A stretch of 25,939 nucleotides of DNA, from positions 1 through 25,939 of the forward strand of contig JALLAZ010000071.1 in assembly GCA_036939755.1 (NCBI GenBank). The letters are read 5' to 3'. The number at the start of each line of letters is the position of its first letter. The first letter of the stretch is position 1. Shown one piece after another: positions 209-25,939 of the stretch. Made by a program: the position numbers and the translations under genes. This DNA is from Stephanodiscus triporus. Its lineage: Eukaryota > Bacillariophyta > Thalassiosirophyceae > Thalassiosirales > Thalassiosiraceae. The notes beneath the pieces were generated by a model. That model did no database searches. It saw only the letters and a program-made list of their open reading frames with translations, and was not told the DNA's origin.

Positions 209-2199
209 ATGTCAAACATACGTCGATCGACGCGAAATAGCAACGATACTGCCGCCAACGATGGTCTCCAGGCCATGAGGGAGCGTAGTCGCGCGGTGGC
301 GGAGCGAGAGGCGTCGAGGTTGGCTCGTCCTGACCAGCCGGTGGCATCCAACAAACTGGGGCACGCCTCCAAGGCAAAAAGCGCAGTTATGTCGACCCCA
401 TTCGGCCAGATGATGGGTGGTCGAAGTCCCGCGGGACGAAAATCCGATCCCGGACTTCAGGAGGAGTGGTGCGGTCCCTTCAGTGTCGCCAGGCAGATGA
501 TTGCCGCTCGTGAGGAGGCACGACGGCTTCGAGAAGAGCAGCTAGCCGAGACCGATCCCAACAGCAGTAAAGAAAGCCATCCCCTCGATGAGATGACCGA
601 AGTAGCGTTAGAAAAGAAGCGACGATTGGAGAATCCTTCTATGAATTGGGTCTCTCGACGTCAGCGCACAAATAATTCCCCTGCTGGTGGTGATGCGCCT
701 AATGCCAGTTACTACGTGAGTCGACGTAGGCGTTTCAACCAACAGAAGATACTGGGGAGTGGATTTAATAACGTGCCAAGTCTCTTCCAACTTTGCGTAA
801 ATTATCTGGTTGAGAACTTTGAGAGCGTTGACTCGCTTGGTATGGTTGATCATTCTATCCGTCGTTCTTTATGTGAAAGGCTTGTCGCCGTAGGCAAAAT
901 GAATGGAGCCGCATTTGATGTGCTAGCTGAAATGGGAGTGGAAACGCTTGAGCTGGTCGACTGTGCACAAGTCACGCAGGACCAATTTTGCGAAGCGCTC
1001 AGGGCGTTACTTCCATCCGGCTTAAAAGCTTTGATACTAAACCACTGCGGACGTTGCTTTGGCAGTCAGGCAGTACAGGTGATTTCAGAAATTAAGGAGG
1101 ACGAGTTGGAGTTGTTCGCTATTTCTTTAGGAGGAGCTTATCTCTTGAAAGATGAAGACATGGCTAAGTTGATCGGTGCAGCGTGGCGGTCGCTTTCATC
1201 GATTGATATCACAGCTTGTCCTCTAATTGGTACACAATTTTGCCAAGCGTTGGGTGTTTACTTTTCTACGTCAGTTGGTGGGGTGGGCGGAACTCTTTTG
1301 GAGTTATCATTGCAGAATATCCCATTGACCAAGGAAGCTCTACTATCTGTAGGCGCATCATCGGATGCCCTTCGGAACTTGAAAAGCTTGAAGCTGAGAG
1401 AAATGGAATGTGTCGATGACGAGGTCGTCTCCATTATTCTAAGCTCGATCAATCAGGGGTCATTGGAAGGCATTGATCTTGGTGGAAACCCTCAACTGAC
1501 GGATGAAATCTTGCCCTGTATTCGACGTTGTAATACCAATGGAAACCTACGTGCATTGCTTTTAAGTGGTCTGAAAAATCTCACTGCGATTGGATTGGAG
1601 ATTTTCTTCACACCGATCGAGGATCTCCCCTCGCCCCCCATGCTAAGAAAACTTGATTTATCGCAGTGTTCTTACAATGAGGTCAACGACACAATCTTAA
1701 TACTGGCGGCGAAGGCGGCATCTTTCAAGCAGTCGTTGACAGATGCAGTCGACGAAGACAATCCAAATCCAGAAAGCCTCTTTTTCGGAGTCTCGAGTGT
1801 CATGGGACTAGTTCACATCAATGCAGGAGGTAGTAGCATAACAGATAAGGTGAGTACAATCAAACTGAGAAGATTTTGTCATCTCAGTTTCAAAACTCAT
1901 ATATTTCACTGACAAGAAGCGACTCATTTTCATATGAAAACCAGTCATTGGAAATTCTTGCTGCCACATGCAGCTCATCGTTGCAAGAGCTGGACATTAG
2001 CTTTGCTTCAAATGTCACAGACAAGGGACTGGGCTATTTGACATCAAAAGTAGGACATCAGTTCAAGAAGATCCACATTTGGGGTCTAGCTCAAATAACA
2101 GAGGATTTTCTTGATGGACATGACCGGGTCGAAGAAGGAGGACTAGAAATTGTGGGTGTATGGATGAAGAAAAGCGGTGTTAGATCTCTACGAAGGTGA
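209..2199 (+). CDS. RAD7-like leucine-rich-repeat protein
   Basis: Two exons, 209-1849 and 1945-2199, give 631 aa. The 95-nt phase-0 intron has donor AAG|GTGAGT and acceptor CCAG. An in-frame ATG at 56 has no stop before 209, so a start 51 codons upstream is possible; I prefer 209 because the sequence there starts with a basic, disordered nuclear-type tail (SNIRRSTRNS). Residues 1-190 are charged and low complexity. From about residue 190 a helical block (VPSLFQLCVNYL) leads into repeated LxxLxLxxC/N units (LKALILNHC, LKSLKLREM, LRKLDLSQC, LQELDISFA) up to about residue 600. This order, a disordered N-terminus, an F-box-like block and AMN1/RAD7-type repeats, resembles yeast Rad7, which helps detect DNA damage and target ubiquitin ligase activity in global-genome nucleotide excision repair. 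The RAD7 assignment is inference from architecture; an unrelated LRR/F-box adaptor is the alternative. The 3' end converges on the CAF-1 gene. Confidence 0.6.
1850..1944 (+). other. Intron of the RAD7-like gene (95 nt)
   Basis: The donor GTGAGT follows AAG and the acceptor is AACCAG. Without splicing the reading frame stops at 1912. Removing the intron joins two leucine-rich-repeat segments in phase 0. Confidence 0.8.
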
Positions 2200-2332
2200 A
2201 GGAAAAGATGACTAGGTATAGCAATGCGGTCATAAAATGTGGCCTTCGGTGGTTAGATAATCTCTTTCTTATTTTTATCTGGTAGTGATACTGTATCTTA
2301 ACATAATGCCATGGGCACTACTTTGACTACTT
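2200..2332. other. Convergent intergenic spacer (3' ends of RAD7-like and CAF-1 genes)
   Basis: A 133-bp AT-rich stretch lies between two stop codons that face each other. It must hold both 3' UTRs and polyadenylation sites. No gene or clear motif is visible. Confidence 0.6.
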
Positions 2333-5300
2333 CTAGCTGTCCAATTTTTGTTTCTTCTTACTAATGAACGCAGCAAGCAGATTGGCCGAGGCAGTTGACA
2401 CTTTATGCTTCTTTGATGAAGATGATTTCTTAGTGTGACTCACTGAGGGCACGGGGGAGCACGAAGTCACTGCGACTTTACTTTCAGGCGATGCAACCTT
2501 ACATGAATATTCCGCCATTTCCTTATGATATCGTGCCTTATCTGTTGCGGCCTTCTCATCCCAGGCGGCCCGTTCCTCGGCAGTTAATGCCTTGAAATTC
2601 GCGGATAGTAACTTAGTTACATCACCAAATACCAAATTTGGATTTGCCGCGCGGAAATCGTTACGGGTAGCAATGCAATACAAGAGAAAGGCCGACATGT
2701 TTTGTTTCGGAGCATTTGGATCCTTTTTCTTCTTCGTTTTGTCTCCTCCCTCCGACAATTTGGAAGGGGGTACTTCTTCTGGAGCTTTTTTCTACGTGGT
2801 TTAATTCATTGCAAAATATTAGTGAGTGGCATGCATGTTGGCATTAGGTGTTGTTAGGAGATCGCAAGCAAACTTACCAAATCTTCTTCCTTCAAATCAA
2901 GCTTCTTGAGATGATCACTCTTCACCTCCCAAAGTACGCCTGGACCGTTGGCCAATCGTCGCTTGTCTGCAATAGCATCCAACTCTCGCATCGCCTGAGC
3001 TCGACTGTTGGTAATAGTAGGGTGGGCCTTGAGCAATTCGGTTACAACATGATCCTTCGATTTCAGAGTAGAGTTGTGTACGAAATGGGCCATGAGCTTT
3101 TGTGCCTCGGGCGTCAAGTCTTTGATCTGTGGCGTGGACGATTTTCCAGACGAATCCTTCTTGGTTTGGTTGGCGTCCTTGATCGAGTCCGAAGGTGGGA
3201 AAGCATCCAAACAAATACTAACATCAGGGGTGATTACACATCCTGCGTGTGAGGATAGGGCGTCCATAGCTTCCTGTGGGGAAAAACCCTCAATTAAACA
3301 TTGAATATCATCGTCTTCGAAGCTCTCGTGAGGCAGGCCTCCAATGAGTGGTGCCACAACGCATGCTTTGAAATGGCTTGGCTTTCCAGAAGGACCGTTG
3401 GCATTGTTGGAAAGATTCTTTTTCCTCAATTCCCGTGTCTCGTCATCGTCATCTTCAATGCCCAGATCATCTTCGTCAGCAAGCCAACCATCATTATCTT
3501 CGTCATTCTGCATATCCTCCTCCTCATCTGCACCATCATCGTCATCTACCAAGTCTTCTCCCTCTTCATCATCTCCCTCTTCCCATTCCTCTTCACTGTC
3601 ATTATCATAGTCTAGAAATTTGGTGTCCTTTCCCAGGGGTCGGCGTCCGGTGACGAGGGAGCTCCGCTTGCTCCATGTGCCACGATAAGGAGGACGAACA
3701 TCCTCGTGGAACCCAAGGAATTTGTATCGGTTTGGGACAGTAATAATGCGCTCCTCGTCGTAGGGTTGAGGAGCAAATGCATTTTCCGACAGGACGGTAA
3801 CAAATACTGATATCCTGACTTTGTTAGTTTTCCGACGTCGAGATGCTTTGGATCGAGGTGACAGCTTGGAGAAGGGATTTGTGACGATATGATCGTCTCG
3901 GCTGTCAATCAGCTTGTGGAATGCATCACTGTCAAACAATAGAATATCAGCTCGGACTGAATTTGACAGCACACAGGCGTTCAAAACCTTTGCCTTCTTC
4001 TTCACACTTCCCTGAGAAAAGAATGACATCATTCGCGCCTTACGCTTGTTCTCCTTCTCCTCCAACTCTTGCCTCTTCTTCTCTTTTTCCTCGTTCTTCA
4101 AGCGCGTTTCCTCGGCCTTTTTAAGTTCTTTCTCCTCCTCCTTACGTTTCTTTTCGTTGCGCTTCTCTTCCTCGAGGCGTTTCTTTTCGTTGCGCTTCTC
4201 TTCCTCTTGGCGTTGTTTCTCGCGTTGTTTTTCGGCCAAGTCCTCGGTCTTGTTCTTAATGTGCAGTTTTGACTCCCTGAGAAGTCGAGCCTTTTCTTCT
4301 TCGCGCTCGAATTTGAGTACTTTCTCTTCCATATCGCTAACCTTGGCAGTCAGAGTTTCTCCCACTACAGGAGCTGAAGCTGGTATAGATATTGAGGCAC
4401 TGTTCTGAAGCCACGAAGAGGCCTTATCGATGGCAATTATCAAGTTGATAATTGCCTTGTGATGACCCTGGAGTTTCTTTCTCAATGTCCGCGCCTTCTT
4501 AACTTTTATGGCTTCCTTTTGCGGAAGAAGGTCTAAAGAGGAGAGCTCCCAGCGCCACATGTAACATTCCTCGGCATTCTCAAAGCAGTCAAGTTTGGCG
4601 ACCGGGTTAGCCTTTTCGGATGGGGGAGGCTTGCCGCTCAGATAGGACTTGCGTTGGGCCAGGAGCTTAATTTTGGATGATATAGATTCGAAGGTGAGGG
4701 GTCTGACGTCGGTAATGAAAGGTGAAAGCTTTTCAAAGGCATACTTGGTGATGACAGAGAGTGGTTGCGATCTATGTTCAAATGATAATGAAGATTCATA
4801 ACATCGGTAAGGCATGACACGAGTTTCACGAAAGCGGGCGAATGGGCACTGTTGCGTTTGAATGCTCACCTTCCTTGCACAAGTAACTGCAAATGCGTCA
4901 ACAACTTATCAGGGAACCCTCCATCCTCGGCAACTTCAACGGATCCCTCATTCTCAGTGCATCCCTCCAAAGATAGACATTCTTCTTCATAGTCATCCGA
5001 ACTCGGGAGATTACCCAATTCGATAGCTCGCAAGACATATTTCGCACGCAGTATCTTGTAATCGCGAAGCCGAGAGGCATCCTCCTCCGAGAGATTGACA
5101 ATACTTGGGGTAGTAGATGAGGAAACGGTATCTATCTTGGCGTCAATAATATTGTTTGATGATGTCGTATCATTGATTGCACCCGAAAAGTCTGAAGCAG
5201 TATCTGATGGGGATTCTTGCTTTTTTGTTTTGCACACCTTCGTCCGAGGGCAGGCTGCCAATTTTTTGAGAGAGATGGCAATAGGTGCCAATCCCTTTGT

Positions 5301-12248: not shown

Positions 12249-15014
12249 CTATTGACTCTGTAGCCGATTAATCAGCTCGAGTTTGTTCCCTCCAACTTTG
12301 AGGCCCCTGCTACGCAATAAATCCTTAAGCTCTGGCACAGTTAAGGAGGACAGATCATGGATTTTGGTTGTAGCCTGTGTAAGTCCAGTTTCTTCGGGAG
12401 GTTGTGACGCGCTAATCTGGACTTCCAATTTAGTTAGCTCGTTTCTTGGCAACTCAATCTCATTTGCAACATCATTAATCAAACTAGAAAAGAAGTCATT
12501 CTGCAATTCTTCATCATCTATTCTTCCCCGGGACAGCGCTTTGCCCATTTCTTGCTCGAGACTCGCGAAGAAATCATCATCGTCGTCTTTCCTCTCCTGC
12601 TTTTTCCCACTGCCATAACCACCCCCGAGTGACTGAGACAGTTCAGCCTCCAGACTGGAGAAAAAATCATCATCGTCCAAGTTCCTTTGAGACTTGACTT
12701 TCCCCGAACGAGAGGACGACGGTTGATCGAGCACTCCTCCCAGCTCGCTCATCAGGTTTTCGAAGAAGGAGTCCTCGGGACCTCCGCTCTTCTCCGTAAC
12801 CTTCGCATTCGGTCCAGCATAGTCGTGGTTACGCCCCCCTCGCGCTCTTGGTCCTCTGTCTTCTGATCTATCTTCACGCAGGTCGTTGCTGAGCTCACTC
12901 ATCAAGGAATCGAAGAAGTCGCCCTCTTTTCCGGCACCATCATCAAAATTTGACGACGCTGAGGTCCAATCGTCCTCGCGATCACGGGACTGCCGTGCGA
13001 CCGTCCGGCGTTCCCCGGCGTTCCCCCGTTCGCGTCTACTATCGGTCTCGCCGCGAGGGTTCCTTTTCTTATCGAATGCGTTTCCCCTTCCATCCCTGTC
13101 GTCGCGACGGCCCATCGGCGCACGATCTTTGTAAACTTCGGCCGTGCGCCGTTTGCGTTCTCTCTCCTCTTCTTCCGAATTGGCCTCAAATCCGTACTCT
13201 CCTCCATTCCTTCGTGGTATCGATTGCGAAAGATCGAATTCAATGAGGGGGGGGCGGGGGGGGGGCAGTGGTGCAAATTAGATTCATCGGCATCAAGCAA
13301 CACACGCACCAAGAGCTCCGCTCGGTTATCCCCCTGTCGAATTAGCGCGAAAAGAAGAGCGTATGAGTGCACTGGACGGGAAAACGATCATTGAAACGTA
13401 TAACGAAGCATCGCCAACGCAAACTCACCACGTATCCTGGCCCTTCGGTGGCCCCTCCTTGACCTTTTTCATCGCGGTCTCGGGTCGTCCGGCCGGCACA
13501 TTCGTTTCCCCGCCGCCCCCGCGTTGGCCGGCGCGTTTCTCCTCCCGGTAGGCGAGCCAGTTCCGTTCCTCCCTCCCGACGTCCTCGGCGCTACGGCCGA
13601 GCGCGTCGCGTCGATTATCGCCCGTCGTCTCCCCCCGCGCGACGCGATCCTCGCGTCGATTCCTCCCCGGCGCGACTCCCGCGCTCTGCAGCAGCCCGGA
13701 ACGCAGGGACGACGACGACGACGACGCGCGGTCGCCCGCGGTGCGCCCGCCTTCCACGGCGGGTGGGTCCCTCTTCCCGATGATGACGTCGAACTGATCC
13801 TGGTCGATGGGCGACGTCGGGCCGCCGAGCCCTCGCAGCGCCTCCAGGTCGGTCAATGGCCGGACGGCGTCTGGATCGAACCACTCGTCGTACGTTTGGC
13901 CGTACGTGAACATCCTGACCATGAGCATGCCGTCCTTCAGGCGACGGACCGTGCCGTCCTCCCCCTCGAAGTTCCCCCGCAGCACCTTGACCATCTGTCC
14001 CACGTCGTACCCCGCGTACTGCGCCAGCAGGTCCGATCCCGCGTCCGACCTGCCGGTGTAATCCCCCCCGAACATATCCTCGAAGATCTCCTGCTCCTCC
14101 TCCAATCCCTTGAATTTAGACACCTCCTCCGGCCCGAGCGGCAACGGCACCGGCGGGAGCCTCCTATTCCCCCTCCTGTTCACGGTGCCCATCCAGCTGC
14201 GCGCCAATTCCAATCCCTGCAGCGCCTCGTACACGTCCTCGGCCAGCCGTATCCTGCAGAAGACGTACCCGGGATATCGCACCCTCACGTCCACGACCTT
14301 CCTCCTGTCGCCGTGGGATCGCAGGTGTCTCTCCGTCGGCACGACGAACTTTTCCACGTCCGACGACGGGAAGTCGGCGCAAACCTGCCGACACTGGTTC
14401 AGCAGGTCGAGCTCGTTCCCAGCCACGCAATTGATCAGGTACCACGAGGTGCCGTCCGCCGGATCGTCTGCGTGGCCCGGCGTTTTCGGGATCGTGCGTT
14501 TTTTTTTTTTCCACGCCCCGAGATCGATTTTTTTTTTCGGAACCACCCCCCCCCCCGTCCGAGGGACGACGATGCGAAAAAAAGAAGGCACGAGAGCTAT
14601 TGAGTTATATTATACGCACGACGTAGGCAGGACGAAATTATTATATACGCGGCAGCGGCGGCGGGGGGAGGGGGAGGGAGGCGAATCTCCTCCCGCCCCC
14701 GTCATTCCCCCCGAAATATCGCGATAAAAAGAAGAAGAAGAAGAAAACTCACCCTCCTCGATCTCCAGTCGCTTCCACATCTTGCCCCGTAGGGCCGTGG
14801 ACTGGAGGGACCTACACGACGACGACGACGAGGAGGACCGCCACCACGACGACGATGCGGGAGGAGGAGGAGGTCGGAGGTCCTCCGTCCTCGTCCTCGT
14901 CGTCGTCGTCCTCGTCCTCGTCGAACGATGCGCCGACGTCGACGTCGACGACGAACGGAAGGCGCCGCTCCCCCCCGCGACCAGGAGGAGGGAGGCGCAG
15001 GCGATCGTCGTCAT
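12249..15014 (-). CDS. Plastid-targeted NusG/KOW-domain protein with C-terminal FF repeats and SAP domain
   Basis: The preferred model has exons 15014-14753, 14467-13429 and 13209-12249 (753 aa). A 24-nt extra exon at 13333-13310 also fits the frame. The N-terminus (MTTIACASLLLVAGGSGAF) is a signal peptide with a cleavage site next to Phe, the diatom plastid-targeting pattern, followed by a Ser/Thr/Arg-rich transit-like stretch. An NGN-like domain spans about 94-186 (TSWYLINCVAGNELDLL, KFVVPTERH, YPGYVFCRI, WMGTVN). A KOW motif lies at about 241-291 (GQMVKVLRGNFEGEDGTV). NusG proteins bind RNA polymerase and control pausing; this one would act on plastid transcription. The last exon has five FFxxLxxE-type repeats (Phe pairs near 532, 582, 616, 647 and 673) and a SAP domain at 718-752 (LTVPELKDLLRSRGLKVGG), a DNA/RNA-binding fold also found in plastid nucleoid proteins. 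NusG and targeting are firm; continuity with the SAP exon is splice inference. Confidence 0.8.
13210..13428 (-). other. NusG gene intron(s) before the SAP exon, with possible 24-nt microexon at 13333-13310
   Basis: The donor ACGTG|GTGAGT (phase 2) and the acceptor CCACGAAG join W to NGGEYGFE in frame as one 219-nt intron. An internal acceptor TTCGACAG and donor CTCTTG|GTGCGT bound a 24-nt segment in the same phase, which would give two introns of 95 and 100 nt. A G/C homopolymer tract (13247-13265) lies inside. Confidence 0.6.
14468..14752 (-). other. NusG gene intron 1 (285 nt; nearer alternative acceptor gives 156 nt)
   Basis: The donor GAGGAGG|GTGAGT is phase 1. The acceptor CACGCAG at 14468 gives EED|DPADGTSWY. 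A second in-frame acceptor, CTCAATAG at 14597, would instead retain 129 nt. That stretch contains runs of A (up to 12) and G, and would encode a Lys/Gly-rich segment. I prefer the longer intron because of those homopolymers and the smoother acidic junction. Confidence 0.6.
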
Positions 15015-15482: not shown

Positions 15483-18400
15483 ATGGCGGCGCTCCTCCCG
15501 ACGATCACCTCCGACGACGACGACGACGACGACGAGGACGGGTCGTCGTCGACCGCACGAGTCGAAGTCGGGGGAGGGGACAACCGCCGTCGTCGTCGTC
15601 GTCGGGCGATGACGGGAGCCGCCGACGACGACGACGACGAGGACGACGAGATGGACGAGGACCTCGAGTTCGGCGGACTCCTGGCGAGTTGTTTGTTTGT
15701 TTTTCTCGTCCTCCGCCCTCCCACCACCCCTCCCCCCCCCCGATATTCTCTTTTCCTTTAATACTCGTCCTCTCCCCCTGTCAAAGTTCTCATCCCTGCC
15801 CTCTCCACTCTCTCCCTCGTCCCATATTTTTTTATCTTCTTGCCCATTCTCTACTACCGTATCTATAATATAATATACTGCCAACCCAGGGAGAGGACGG
15901 CAGCGGCGCGGCGTTCCTAGACGGTCGCTACTCCGGCGGCGCGTCATCCTCGTGGAGCTACAGGTCGGCGCTGTCGTTGCTATCGAGGAACGACTCGGGA
16001 GACGACGGAACGACGATGATGGTGGCGGAGAGGACGAGCGTCGCGAGCATCATCGCCGCGGCGCGGTCGAACCTTCGACGGGGCGTCGACGACGAAGACG
16101 ACGTTAAAAATGACAAGGGGGAGGATAAGAAGGAGGATGGAGCGAAGGCAAGAGAGGAGGACGACGACGGGAGCGACGACGACGACGACGACGACGATGA
16201 CGACTCCGATGATGACGACTCCGATGACAGCAGCGACGACGGTGTCGACGACGCCGATCATGCGACGAACTCGATGGAGTCCGACGTGCTCAGGGTGCAG
16301 GAGAGGCAACGTCATCCGCAGAGAAAGGGGAAGAAGGAGGAGGACGGGAAATCTATGGGGGGGGGATCCGCCACCTCCTCCTGGGAGGAGAGGGTGGAGA
16401 AGGAGGGGACCCGTGACGAATCGGACGAAGACGACGACAACGACGACGACGATGACGATGAGGACCCGGAACGAGACGATGACGACAATGATGACGACGA
16501 CGAAGACGAGCGGAGGGAGGCTGCCAAGGCGGCGGCATTCTTCGACTCCTCGAGCGGCGTCGTCGTCGCCCCCTCCTCCGATGCCCCCTCGCGCATCGAC
16601 TCGTTCTCCATGCTCGGCATCTCCCGACCCCTCCTCCGGGGCGTGGCGTCGATGGGATTCGTATCGCCCACGCCGATACAGTCGAGCGTCGTGCCGGTGG
16701 CACTCGCGGGGAGGGACGTGTGCGCCTCGGCCGTCACGGGGAGTGAGTGTTTAATTTCTTGTGGTTTGTCCCGCGTCTATCTCTCTCTCTCCCCACCCCC
16801 CCCCAGTCTTGAAACGTCGCGATCCCTCGAAATTGTTCGGCGTCGAGACGTTCGGCACCTCTCGCGCATACGCTCCCACCCTGCTTTCTCTCGCTGTCTC
16901 TCGCGCTCACTCTCTCTCTCTCTCTCTATCCCTTCTTCTTCGCTCAAAAACGAAGGCGGAAAGACGGCGGCGTTCCTGCTCCCGATCATGGAACGGATAC
17001 TGCAACGCGGCGGCGGCCGCGCGACGTCGTCGGTTAGGCCGATCGCCGGGGGTAGGACGAGCTCCGCCACGCGGGCCCTGATCCTGGCCCCGACGAGGGA
17101 GCTCGCGGCGCAGTGCGTCTCCATGATGACGGCGATGGCCAAGTTCACCGACCTGCGGGCCGCCCTCATCGTCGGGGGGGCGAAGAACGTCATGTCTCAG
17201 GTGAGAAATGCGACGGGAAAAAAAAATGATCGGGCGGCGAGAGAGATTCGACGGGCGCCGACGACGACGACGCGTGCCGGTCGAATATCCATGCGGTTAG
17301 CACACTGCCATAGAGAAATGATTATTCGTTCAGTGATCAAATGTCTCTGCCATTGCTAACCAAGAATAAAAGTTGAGCCGAGTTACTATAGGAAACGTCC
17401 CGCATAGAAACTTATGGACTGCTGGGACGAGTCGAACACTCGTGACAATTCTTCGTCGTTGCGTAAATTGATATCTCGAACTTTAATTTTTTTCTCTCTC
17501 TCTCACCTCTTTGTCTTCTTGTCCCACCCCCGACTAACAACGAAGGCCGCCGAGCTACGCACCCGACCCGACGTCGTGGTGGCGACTCCCGGACGTTTGC
17601 TGGATCACATCGCGAACTCCCAGGGGGTGGACATGGACGACGTCGAGTTCCTCGTCCTCGACGAGGCGGACAGGCTCCTTGATCTCGGCTTTCAGGACGA
17701 GGTACACGAGATCGTTAAGTCGTGCCCCGCAGAACGACAGACGATGCTTTTCTCCGCGACGATGAGCACCAAGGTGGACGATCTGATCAGGCTGAGCCTG
17801 AAACGACCCGTGCGTATCTCGGCCACCGACAAGGAGAGGACTGGCAGGCCCGCCGGCTCAAACAACGGCGTCGAGGTGGCGCCGAGGCTCGAGCAGGAAT
17901 TCGTACGCGTCCGGGCTGGGAACGAGGGGGCCAACCGCGAGGGGATGCTCCTCGCGCTGCTGACTCGGACTTTCAGGGATCGAGTCATTGTCTTCTTCGA
18001 CACCAAGTCCGCCGCGCATCGGCTCATGATAGTGTGCGGCCTGTGCGGGATTAAGTGCGCCGAGCTTCACGGGAATCTGACTCAGGTGCAACGGTTGGAG
18101 GCGTTGGAGGCGTTCAGAGAGGGAAGCGTGGATGTCTTGCTCTGCACCGATCTCGCCGCGAGGGGTCTCGACATAACCGGCGTGGAGGCTGTTATCAATT
18201 TCGAGATGCCTTCTCAAGTCGAGACATACGTTCATAGGATCGGCCGCACGGCTCGGGCCGGAAGGGGGGGCAAGTCTTGCACTTTGATCGGCGAGGGAAG
18301 GCGGTATCTGATGAAGGAGGTCATCAAGGACGCGGACGAGAAGAATCGTAGGCAGAAACAGGACAGGAGCTCACAACCGATAGGTGTCATTCGTTCTCGA

Positions 18401-24476: not shown

Positions 24477-25736
24477 CTACTCATAATATGAGTACCCCGT
24501 CTTGCGCCACGCATTTTTGACGACTTGCTCGTCAATCGCATCCACCGCCTCGATTATCCACCCCGACACGTCCTCGCGTTTCGCCGCGCGAATTGGTTGA
24601 TTGGCGTCTTGTGCCAACATCCACGACGTATACGCCTTTGTCATGTGCGTTTTGTATGGCTTGTTGATGCCGACGTCGATCGGCTGCACAAGCCCAGTGC
24701 AACCACCGGGAATGAATTCCATCTGAACGCCGAGTTTTTGGATGGCGTCGGCAACGCTGCCGAGCATATGCACCATGAAGGAGTCAAGGAAAAGAATCGG
24801 GATGATTCCGACTGGTGCCGTCGCGATGTAGGGCGCGAGGACACGCTCCACCCAATGGAGCATGACCTCCTCATTGAACCACGCCTTCGTCTGGACGGTG
24901 TACACCGCGCCAGAAGGATGGTTGGGCAACTCGCGCTGGTCGATCGTCCCCCCCCTCACGCCCTTGTAGACGATGAAGGGGGTGAGGAAGTTGCCAGCGG
25001 CTGTAACCGTCAATGCGACGGTGCAGCACTTGCTCTCGTCGGCCCCCTTTCGCATGTTGACGGTTCGCTGGCCGCGAACATTGAGGGTAGTCTTGGGGGA
25101 CGAACCATAGAATTGGTTCGTCTGGTCCATGTTGATGGTCCAGCGAGGGTCCCGCGTGCGACCAACCAACATGGGACGCACCAACTTCAAGTACGACCTC
25201 GCATCCTCACAGGCAGCCTCAGGAGGCTTCTGTGAGGTGTGAGTCGCTACACGATGCACCAAGTCATGTTGGTGCAGAAAATGACTAATGCACATGAAGC
25301 GTGCAGGAATGGTCTTCTCGGCAAAGGCCGGCTTCAACTGAGTTGCCTTCTGGAGTACGGCAAAACGACTCACAGGAAGACCCCTGTCGCGCCACTCAGT
25401 GATGAACTCAATGAGTTCCTCCTTGATCTCTTCAAGGAAACCTTCAGGGCCTGCATGATATTGGAGCTTTTCAGCATCACTTGAGGAATTACTTGAGGAA
25501 TCGGCCAACAGATCGGGTAGCCTGGCGTCCGCACGCCAGCGGAAGACAGTAGTTCTAGGGAGAGCCAGATCAGCCACAGCACGACCAAAGGAGATTTTTC
25601 CTGCCTTCATCTTCTCATCCACAAGACCCAGGACAAGGGCCTTCTCACGATTGGAGTATCTGCGACGAGGCTTAACATCGGCAGAAAGCCTCCGAGCCGA
25701 ACGGGCGCAACTCTTGCCTCCTTGGTTGTAAATCAT
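24477..25736 (-). CDS. pogo-like (Tc1/mariner superfamily) DDE transposase
   Basis: A single open frame of 419 aa starts at ATG 25736. An N-terminal psq/CENPB-type helix-turn-helix spans about 27-68 (REKALVLGLVDEKMKAG, LALPRTTVFRWR). A second DNA-binding-like helical region follows (about 98-165). The DDE_1 catalytic core has D204 in NMDQTNQFYG, D318 in ILFLDSFMVHML and D354 in GLVQPIDVGINKPYK, with 35 residues between the last two. That spacing and the QPxDxGxNKPxK block are typical of pogo/jerky-type transposases. All three acidic residues are present and there is no internal stop, so the protein could be active. Together with the convergent Cys-rich gene it forms the coding part of a DNA transposon. 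Terminal inverted repeats were not found in the window; the right end may lie past 25939. Confidence 0.85.
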   Translation of the reverse strand: MIYNQGGKSCARSARRLSADVKPRRRYSNREKALVLGLVDEKMKAGKISFGRAVADLALPRTTVFRWRADARLPDLLADSSSNSSSDAEKLQYHAGPEGFLEEIKEELIEFITEWRDRGLPVSRFAVLQKATQLKPAFAEKTIPARFMCISHFLHQHDLVHRVATHTSQKPPEAACEDARSYLKLVRPMLVGRTRDPRWTINMDQTNQFYGSSPKTTLNVRGQRTVNMRKGADESKCCTVALTVTAAGNFLTPFIVYKGVRGGTIDQRELPNHPSGAVYTVQTKAWFNEEVMLHWVERVLAPYIATAPVGIIPILFLDSFMVHMLGSVADAIQKLGVQMEFIPGGCTGLVQPIDVGINKPYKTHMTKAYTSWMLAQDANQPIRAAKREDVSGWIIEAVDAIDEQVVKNAWRKTGYSYYE

Positions 25737-25939
25737 GGCCCGACAAGAATGAATTTGTGAGACAATCTCGTGAGTTATTGTGAAACATGGTCAACACTTC
25801 GTACAATCCCTACACAGGTTCTAGTACAAAATTTTGCGGTAAAATGAATGTGCGCAAAAAAAAGGGTACACAGGAATCATACATAAGCCAAATTGCGCGC
25901 GAGCCATCCCTCTAGAGTACTTTCTTTCTGAGTTTTGTC
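25737..25939. other. Sequence upstream of the transposase
   Basis: About 200 bp that should include the transposase promoter and possibly the element's right end. It contains an A8 run near 25856 and AATCATACATA at 25875-25885. The word ATCATACATA also occurs in the same orientation left of the element, at about 23321-23330. No gene is visible. Confidence 0.35.

Follow-up and report, generated by a model that had tools for sequence, protein, structure and literature searches.

A predicted H/ACA snoRNA in intron 3 of a diatom DDX27-like helicase gene, a probable counterpart of yeast snR34 and vertebrate U65

The window (the whole stretch of DNA analysed here) is positions 1-25,939 of contig C71 in the 21.65-Mb, 1,324-contig assembly of the diatom Stephanodiscus triporus. 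Its plus strand carries a DDX27/Drs1-like gene whose protein contains DEAD and Helicase_C domains (Pfam), and the snoRNA candidate lies in the middle of intron 3 of this gene, flanked by 92 nt of intron on its 5' side and 95 nt on its 3' side. Removal of intron 2 (16743-16955) and intron 3 (17201-17545) joins the exons as ...AVTGSGKTAAF... and ...KNVMSQAAELRTRPD..., respectively. The first of these junctions is also present in P0004, the relative from Thalassiosira sp. AJA248-18, and the second in both P0004 and P0006; at the residue level, excision of intron 3 gives VMSQ|AAELRTRPD, and the same junction is read in these two relatives. When the translated ends of the intron were sought in the N-termini of 20 relatives (of 120 listed; 7,934 found), only the exon junction was obtained.

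Among the best 120 of the 7,934 relatives, the protein encoded downstream of the snoRNA reaches its maximum identity, 93%, with P0002, labelled DDX27 by JGI; the host protein is 83% identical to P0004 and 80% identical, across 69% of the query, to P0101 of Thalassiosira pseudonana. A search of solved structures with P0004 (E <= 1e-60) placed HAS1 chains at the top, and the 6 sequences listed include a DDX54 chain. This structure search neither proves nor excludes DDX27, and the host name rests on the JGI source label; by that label on its relatives the gene is DDX27-like, which agrees with a previous sequence-only reading that took the host to be the ribosome-biogenesis helicase DDX27. No DDX27 relatives were found among viral contigs. 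That reading also took the length of intron 3 as a sign that it carries cargo. The length of 345 nt is confirmed; the argument drawn from it is weak, because intron 2 of the same gene is already 213 nt long, more than the 79-101 nt cited for neighbouring introns. Intron 2 was covered by the Rfam and descriptor scans of the entire window.

Two other coding regions were seen in the window, both on the minus strand: a 437-aa reading frame at 24477-25790 with a DDE_1 superfamily endonuclease domain, transposase-like, and at 13425-14609 a NusG-domain protein (a weak match but above cut-off) that is possibly organelle-targeted.

The features of the candidate and its intron are as follows.

17201-17545, plus strand: intron 3 of the DDX27/Drs1-like host gene, 345 nt, GTGAG...AAG, placed from the spliced junction.
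17293-17450, plus strand: predicted mature H/ACA snoRNA, about 158 nt, descriptor score -49.83.
17295-17361, plus strand: hairpin 1, with lower stem 17295-17302/17354-17361 (8 bp), from the fold and the constrained fold.
17312-17316/17344-17348, plus strand: upper stem of hairpin 1, surmounted by the apical stem 17319-17326/17332-17339, from the fold and the constrained fold.
17303-17311, plus strand: 5' guide strand of hairpin 1 (CACUGCCAU), of which the 7 nt next to the upper stem pair with 28S GUGGCAG.
17349-17353, plus strand: 3' guide strand of hairpin 1 (GCCAU), forming 4 bp with the 28S UGGC that precedes the predicted target U (yeast U2826).
17363-17368, plus strand: box H, AGAAUA (fits ANANNA), read directly; it starts 14 nt past the first guide base of the 3' strand.
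17379-17442, plus strand: hairpin 2, with lower stem 17379-17383/17438-17442 and upper stem 17396-17401/17424-17429.
17384-17395, plus strand: 5' guide strand of hairpin 2 (UACUAUAGGAAA), forming 7 bp with 28S UUCCUAU; A17395 is unpaired.
17430-17437, plus strand: 3' guide strand of hairpin 2 (AGUCGAAC), forming 5 bp with the 28S UCGGC that precedes the predicted target U (yeast U2880); A17430 is unpaired.
17445-17447, plus strand: box ACA, read directly, 3 nt before the predicted 3' end at 17450.

Both hairpins, both boxes and both pockets had been proposed by the sequence-only reading, and all are present at these positions. The two hairpins are separated by a single-stranded hinge that contains box H (AGAAUA), as expected of an H/ACA RNA. 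The distances from upper stem to box that had been put forward were reproduced at 17293-17450: 14 nt from hairpin 1 to AGAAUA and 15 nt from hairpin 2 to ACA. The descriptor described below counts 13 nt for hairpin 1, having added the wobble U17311-G17349 to the upper stem. In the constrained fold all listed pairs of hairpin 1 are standard. The unconstrained fold (-41.7) has box ACA paired, and opening both boxes gives -39.9, a cost of 1.8 kcal/mol; with boxes and pockets all held open, the canonical stems form at -34.4, with 3 extra pairs above the upper stem of hairpin 2.

To define such arrangements quantitatively, we used a descriptor consisting of a lower stem, pocket, upper stem, pocket and lower stem, followed by ANANNA, a second hairpin of the same kind and ACA, with an upper-stem-to-box distance of 13-16 nt. 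In its first setting the distance between box H and hairpin 2 was limited to 8 nt, which left out the candidate with its 10 nt; the hinge limit was raised to 14 nt after that miss, and all descriptor controls use the raised limit. With this setting the candidate is the top of 32 H/ACA-like arrangements in the window, at -49.83 compared with -36.49 for the next. The covariance search that the sequence-only reading had suggested gave no Rfam model match: at the gathering score there were 0 matches in the whole window, and the only two hits of a permissive scan of the intron, one to a C/D snoRNA and one to a bacterial sRNA, lie on the opposite strand and have E > 4.

Could the fold have arisen by chance, in an intron without a product? 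The lack of an Rfam match fits such an origin, the z-score of the plus-strand fold is just -2.19 (7/200 shuffles equal or better; for the minus strand, z = -1.36 and 22/200), and block-wise dinucleotide shuffling of the whole window, with both strands counted, equalled the structure score in 49 of 1,500 cases. When the shuffling was confined to the intron, however, the score was matched in 0 of 40,000 trials, and none of the 323 arrangements found in 20 stretches of 10 kb (200 kb) from the same genome reached it; nor did any of 80,000 shuffles of the 158-nt segment. Structure by itself is suggestive, short of decisive. Taken with the double target match presented next, these counts make a chance fold barely credible, and the segment 17293-17450 of intron 3 is very probably a genuine H/ACA guide snoRNA, judging from its sequence and predicted fold.

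We then turn to the targets. Ribosomal RNA was sought in the assembly with a 5.8S model, which had no match, and with LSU and SSU pieces, which had none either in searches made without a positive control. The pool that we scanned therefore comes from other eukaryotes, whose rRNA is present as a contaminant in public contigs: it totals 3,928 nt, drawn from L005 (28S, Rfam model 1990-3401), L007 (3' part of 28S), and L003 and L010 (parts of 18S), and it covers approximately the 3' two fifths of 28S and only part of 18S. A site was defined by pairing of the bases before a U with the 3' pocket strand, one skipped base, and pairing of the next bases with the 5' strand; one unpaired base beside the stem was tolerated on each side.

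The contigs themselves deserve comment. L002-L007 are six bacterial MAG contigs from the GTDB collection that carry eukaryotic 28S rDNA, which is eukaryotic contamination. L010 is an IMG/VR contig catalogued as viral that ends, at 3632-4543, in a eukaryotic 18S rRNA of reduced length (the 912 matched nt span the complete model), and it is probably an assembly chimera.

Within the pool, hairpin 1 pairs best at U140 of L007, ACUGGC-[U]U-GUGGCAG, with 4 + 7 bp and an energy of -23.07 (runner-up, -16.36). Hairpin 2 pairs best at U194 of L007, equivalent to U1261 of L005, UCGGC-[U]C-UUCCUAU, with 5 + 7 bp and -19.36 (runner-up, -10.93). The 28S stretches on which the target claim rests are ACUGGCUUGUGGCAG and UCGGCUCUUCCUAU. 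In both hairpins the predicted pairing flanks an unpaired U-N, as in H/ACA RNAs, where the expected distance to the box is about 14-15 nt; here the 3' strand begins to pair exactly 14 nt ahead of the box in each case. There is no cross fit: hairpin 1 fits the U2826 site and hairpin 2 the U2880 site (yeast numbering, see below). L005 carries GAC, not GGC, ahead of U2826, which breaks the 3' pairing of hairpin 1, so that L005 fits hairpin 2 only; hairpin 1 accordingly fits one (L007) of the two 28S pieces covering U2826. The hairpin 1 register requires the terminal wobble U17311-G17349 to be opened, and if it is kept closed the best site is a different one, at -12.96.

Genes for U2 and U5 snRNA were located in this genome, and U6 was sought without a match (a search made without a positive control); the sense strands of its U2 and U5 offer no site for the candidate pockets, the sense strand of its U3 has one site at -11.08, and the best site in the 5S of L004 is at -14.04. 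The sequence-only reading had expected the pockets to define rRNA or snRNA targets and had proposed matching them to the species' own RNAs: both pockets do fill with 28S, that of other eukaryotes, while the genome's own U2 and U5 provide no site. As a separate observation, the U2 snRNA and U3 snoRNA genes lie back to back, about 360 bp apart, on L009 (G000:C752), at 1501-1693 on the minus strand and 2056-2268 on the plus strand.

U140 and U194 of L007 are 54 nt apart and correspond to U2826 and U2880 of yeast 25S rRNA, with the yeast numbering anchored by U194 = 2880. This numbering finds the right base throughout in both L007 and L005: U at 2826, 2865 and 2921, C at 2870 and G at 2922, as required by the reported positions of Psi2826, m5C2870, Um2921 and Gm2922 (PMC11121408) and of U2865 (PMC8536713). 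U2826 is equivalent to E. coli Psi2457 and is described as a universally conserved modified position of the large subunit, near the peptidyl transferase centre (PMC11121408). In yeast, the guide reported for both 25S-U2826 and 25S-U2880 is a single RNA, snR34 (PMC8536713).

To gauge the strength of the match, we compared it with several backgrounds. Shuffled rRNA pools equalled the match of hairpin 1 in 21 of 3,000 trials and that of hairpin 2 in 22 of 3,000; they equalled both in 0 of 3,000. At these sites, pockets with their bases shuffled did as well in 0 of 20,000 trials for hairpin 1 and 3 of 20,000 for hairpin 2. The 323 background arrangements (200 kb) were treated like the candidate, each one with an upper stem longer than 4 bp being free to open one terminal pair; none of them had both hairpins at or below -19; hairpin 1 was best at U2826 in 1 of them, hairpin 2 was best at U2880 in 0, and both sites were found in 0. 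The summed target energy of the candidate, -42.43, leads the best background value, -41.59, only narrowly. Since this margin is small, the weight of the argument rests on the identity of the two sites: that both sites of one known guide should appear, in the hairpin order of that guide, seems hard to explain by chance.

The candidate is read as the snR34/U65 counterpart because its two pockets match the site pair of that guide in its hairpin order: the U2826/U2880 pair is the predicted target, with the 5' hairpin directed to U2826 and the 3' hairpin to U2880 in the 28S of other eukaryotes. We put the probability that it is an intron-encoded H/ACA guide, corresponding in this diatom to yeast snR34 and vertebrate U65 (SNORA65), at roughly 0.94. 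With yeast snR34 it would share the same two 25S positions; it differs in being intronic, and the two RNAs are likened by their targets. snR34 is one of the yeast snoRNAs with its own promoter. Most yeast snoRNAs are reported to have one (PMC7671301). Chicken U65 (GGgACA46) resembles the candidate in layout. That RNA lies in intron 4 of RPL12 and is reported to direct hairpin 1 to 28S-3858 (7+3 nt) and hairpin 2 to 28S-3912 (6+5 nt), and 28S-3912 is tabulated beside yeast snR34, plant U65 and mammalian U65 (PMC2653536). The diatom RNA has the same intronic setting, the same 54-nt spacing of sites, the same hairpin order and a similar pocket split (7+4 and 7+5). In contrast, its host is a DDX27/Drs1-like helicase gene instead of RPL12, and the Rfam SNORA65 model (RF00302) does not match it: searched against the genome at E <= 10 the model found nothing, and the permissive scan of the intron gave no hit to it either. 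The candidate is filed by its target pair, outside that model.

Two other readings accept an H/ACA RNA at this locus. In the first, the snoRNA is real and has other targets (another rRNA site, an snRNA, or none as an orphan), and the match to snR34/U65 is coincidental. A lone pocket match of this strength is uncommon, not exceptional, as the 21 and 22 shuffled pools attest; the register of hairpin 1 depends on the opening of one wobble; and the scan was without U1, U4 and U6 as well as the portions of 28S and 18S outside the pool. Coincidence would nevertheless have to supply two hairpins that fit both sites of one guide, agree with it in order and roughly in how the pairing is divided between the 5' and 3' pocket strands, and pair 14 nt from their boxes; no background arrangement reproduced that site pair. 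We regard this reading as very unlikely. In the second, the locus is a decayed or moved copy of snR34/U65 and the active copy is elsewhere in the genome. Movement of snoRNAs within genomes has been reported (PMC3511168), and parts of the genome may be missing from the assembly; yet the candidate, searched against the 21.65-Mb assembly at E <= 10, has itself as its sole match, and its stems are intact, as are both boxes and both guides, so that a decayed or moved copy is most improbable.

If the locus does encode the snR34/U65 counterpart, its path to the ribosome can be outlined by analogy with known H/ACA RNPs. For these, the spliced intron is debranched and an intronic snoRNA is processed out of it; the target then occupies the pocket, where dyskerin/Cbf5 isomerises the U left unpaired (PMC8096250, PMC7671301). 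The diatom snoRNA would be freed from the DDX27 intron after splicing and would join the complex of dyskerin (Cbf5), Nop10, Gar1 and Nhp2. Its hairpins would then offer two 28S positions to dyskerin, U2826 (hairpin 1; yeast numbering, E. coli 2457) and U2880 (hairpin 2), and the enzyme would convert both to pseudouridine near the peptidyl transferase centre. The assembly encodes a dyskerin-family domain (C27, E 2.3e-29).

The candidate is ordinary in kind, and the evidence for it is solid as far as a case made from sequence can be. It would show that a diatom has a snR34/U65 guide serving the two sites in the same hairpin order, and this without a covariance-model match, and its predicted targets include U2826, the universally conserved modified position of the large subunit (PMC11121408). 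In the diatom Seminavis robusta, 46 snoRNAs have been counted (PMC7335047); the literature surveyed (PMC4247016, PMC4156623, PMC3141676, PMC7335047) holds no diatom snoRNA tied to the U2826/U2880 targets. As an example of a divergent guide recognised by its pair of ancient targets, the case suggests a practical rule: in genomes like this one, a search for both target sites of an ancient guide at once may recover H/ACA genes that Rfam misses.

An intronic location in a ribosome-biogenesis gene is usual. In Ostreococcus tauri, a green alga and not a diatom, 72 of 131 snoRNAs are reported to lie in introns, and ribosome-biogenesis genes are said to host 33%; the main text of that report does not mention snR34 by name (PMC7671301). 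Is the pairing of host and guide functional, with a pre-60S helicase gene carrying a guide that acts on the same pre-60S region? In yeast, Dbp7, which is a different pre-60S helicase, reportedly promotes the release of snR34 from pre-60S particles (PMC8536713). If the pairing were functional, a single transcript would yield both the guide and a remodeller that may help to place or release it; we consider a functional pairing unlikely. Finally, one relative of the host protein, P0011 (546 aa, from a JGI metagenome), reads straight through the junction of exons 3 and 4 (VMSQAAELRT). It is either transcript-derived or from a related species without intron 3, and in the latter case the guide of that species must lie elsewhere.
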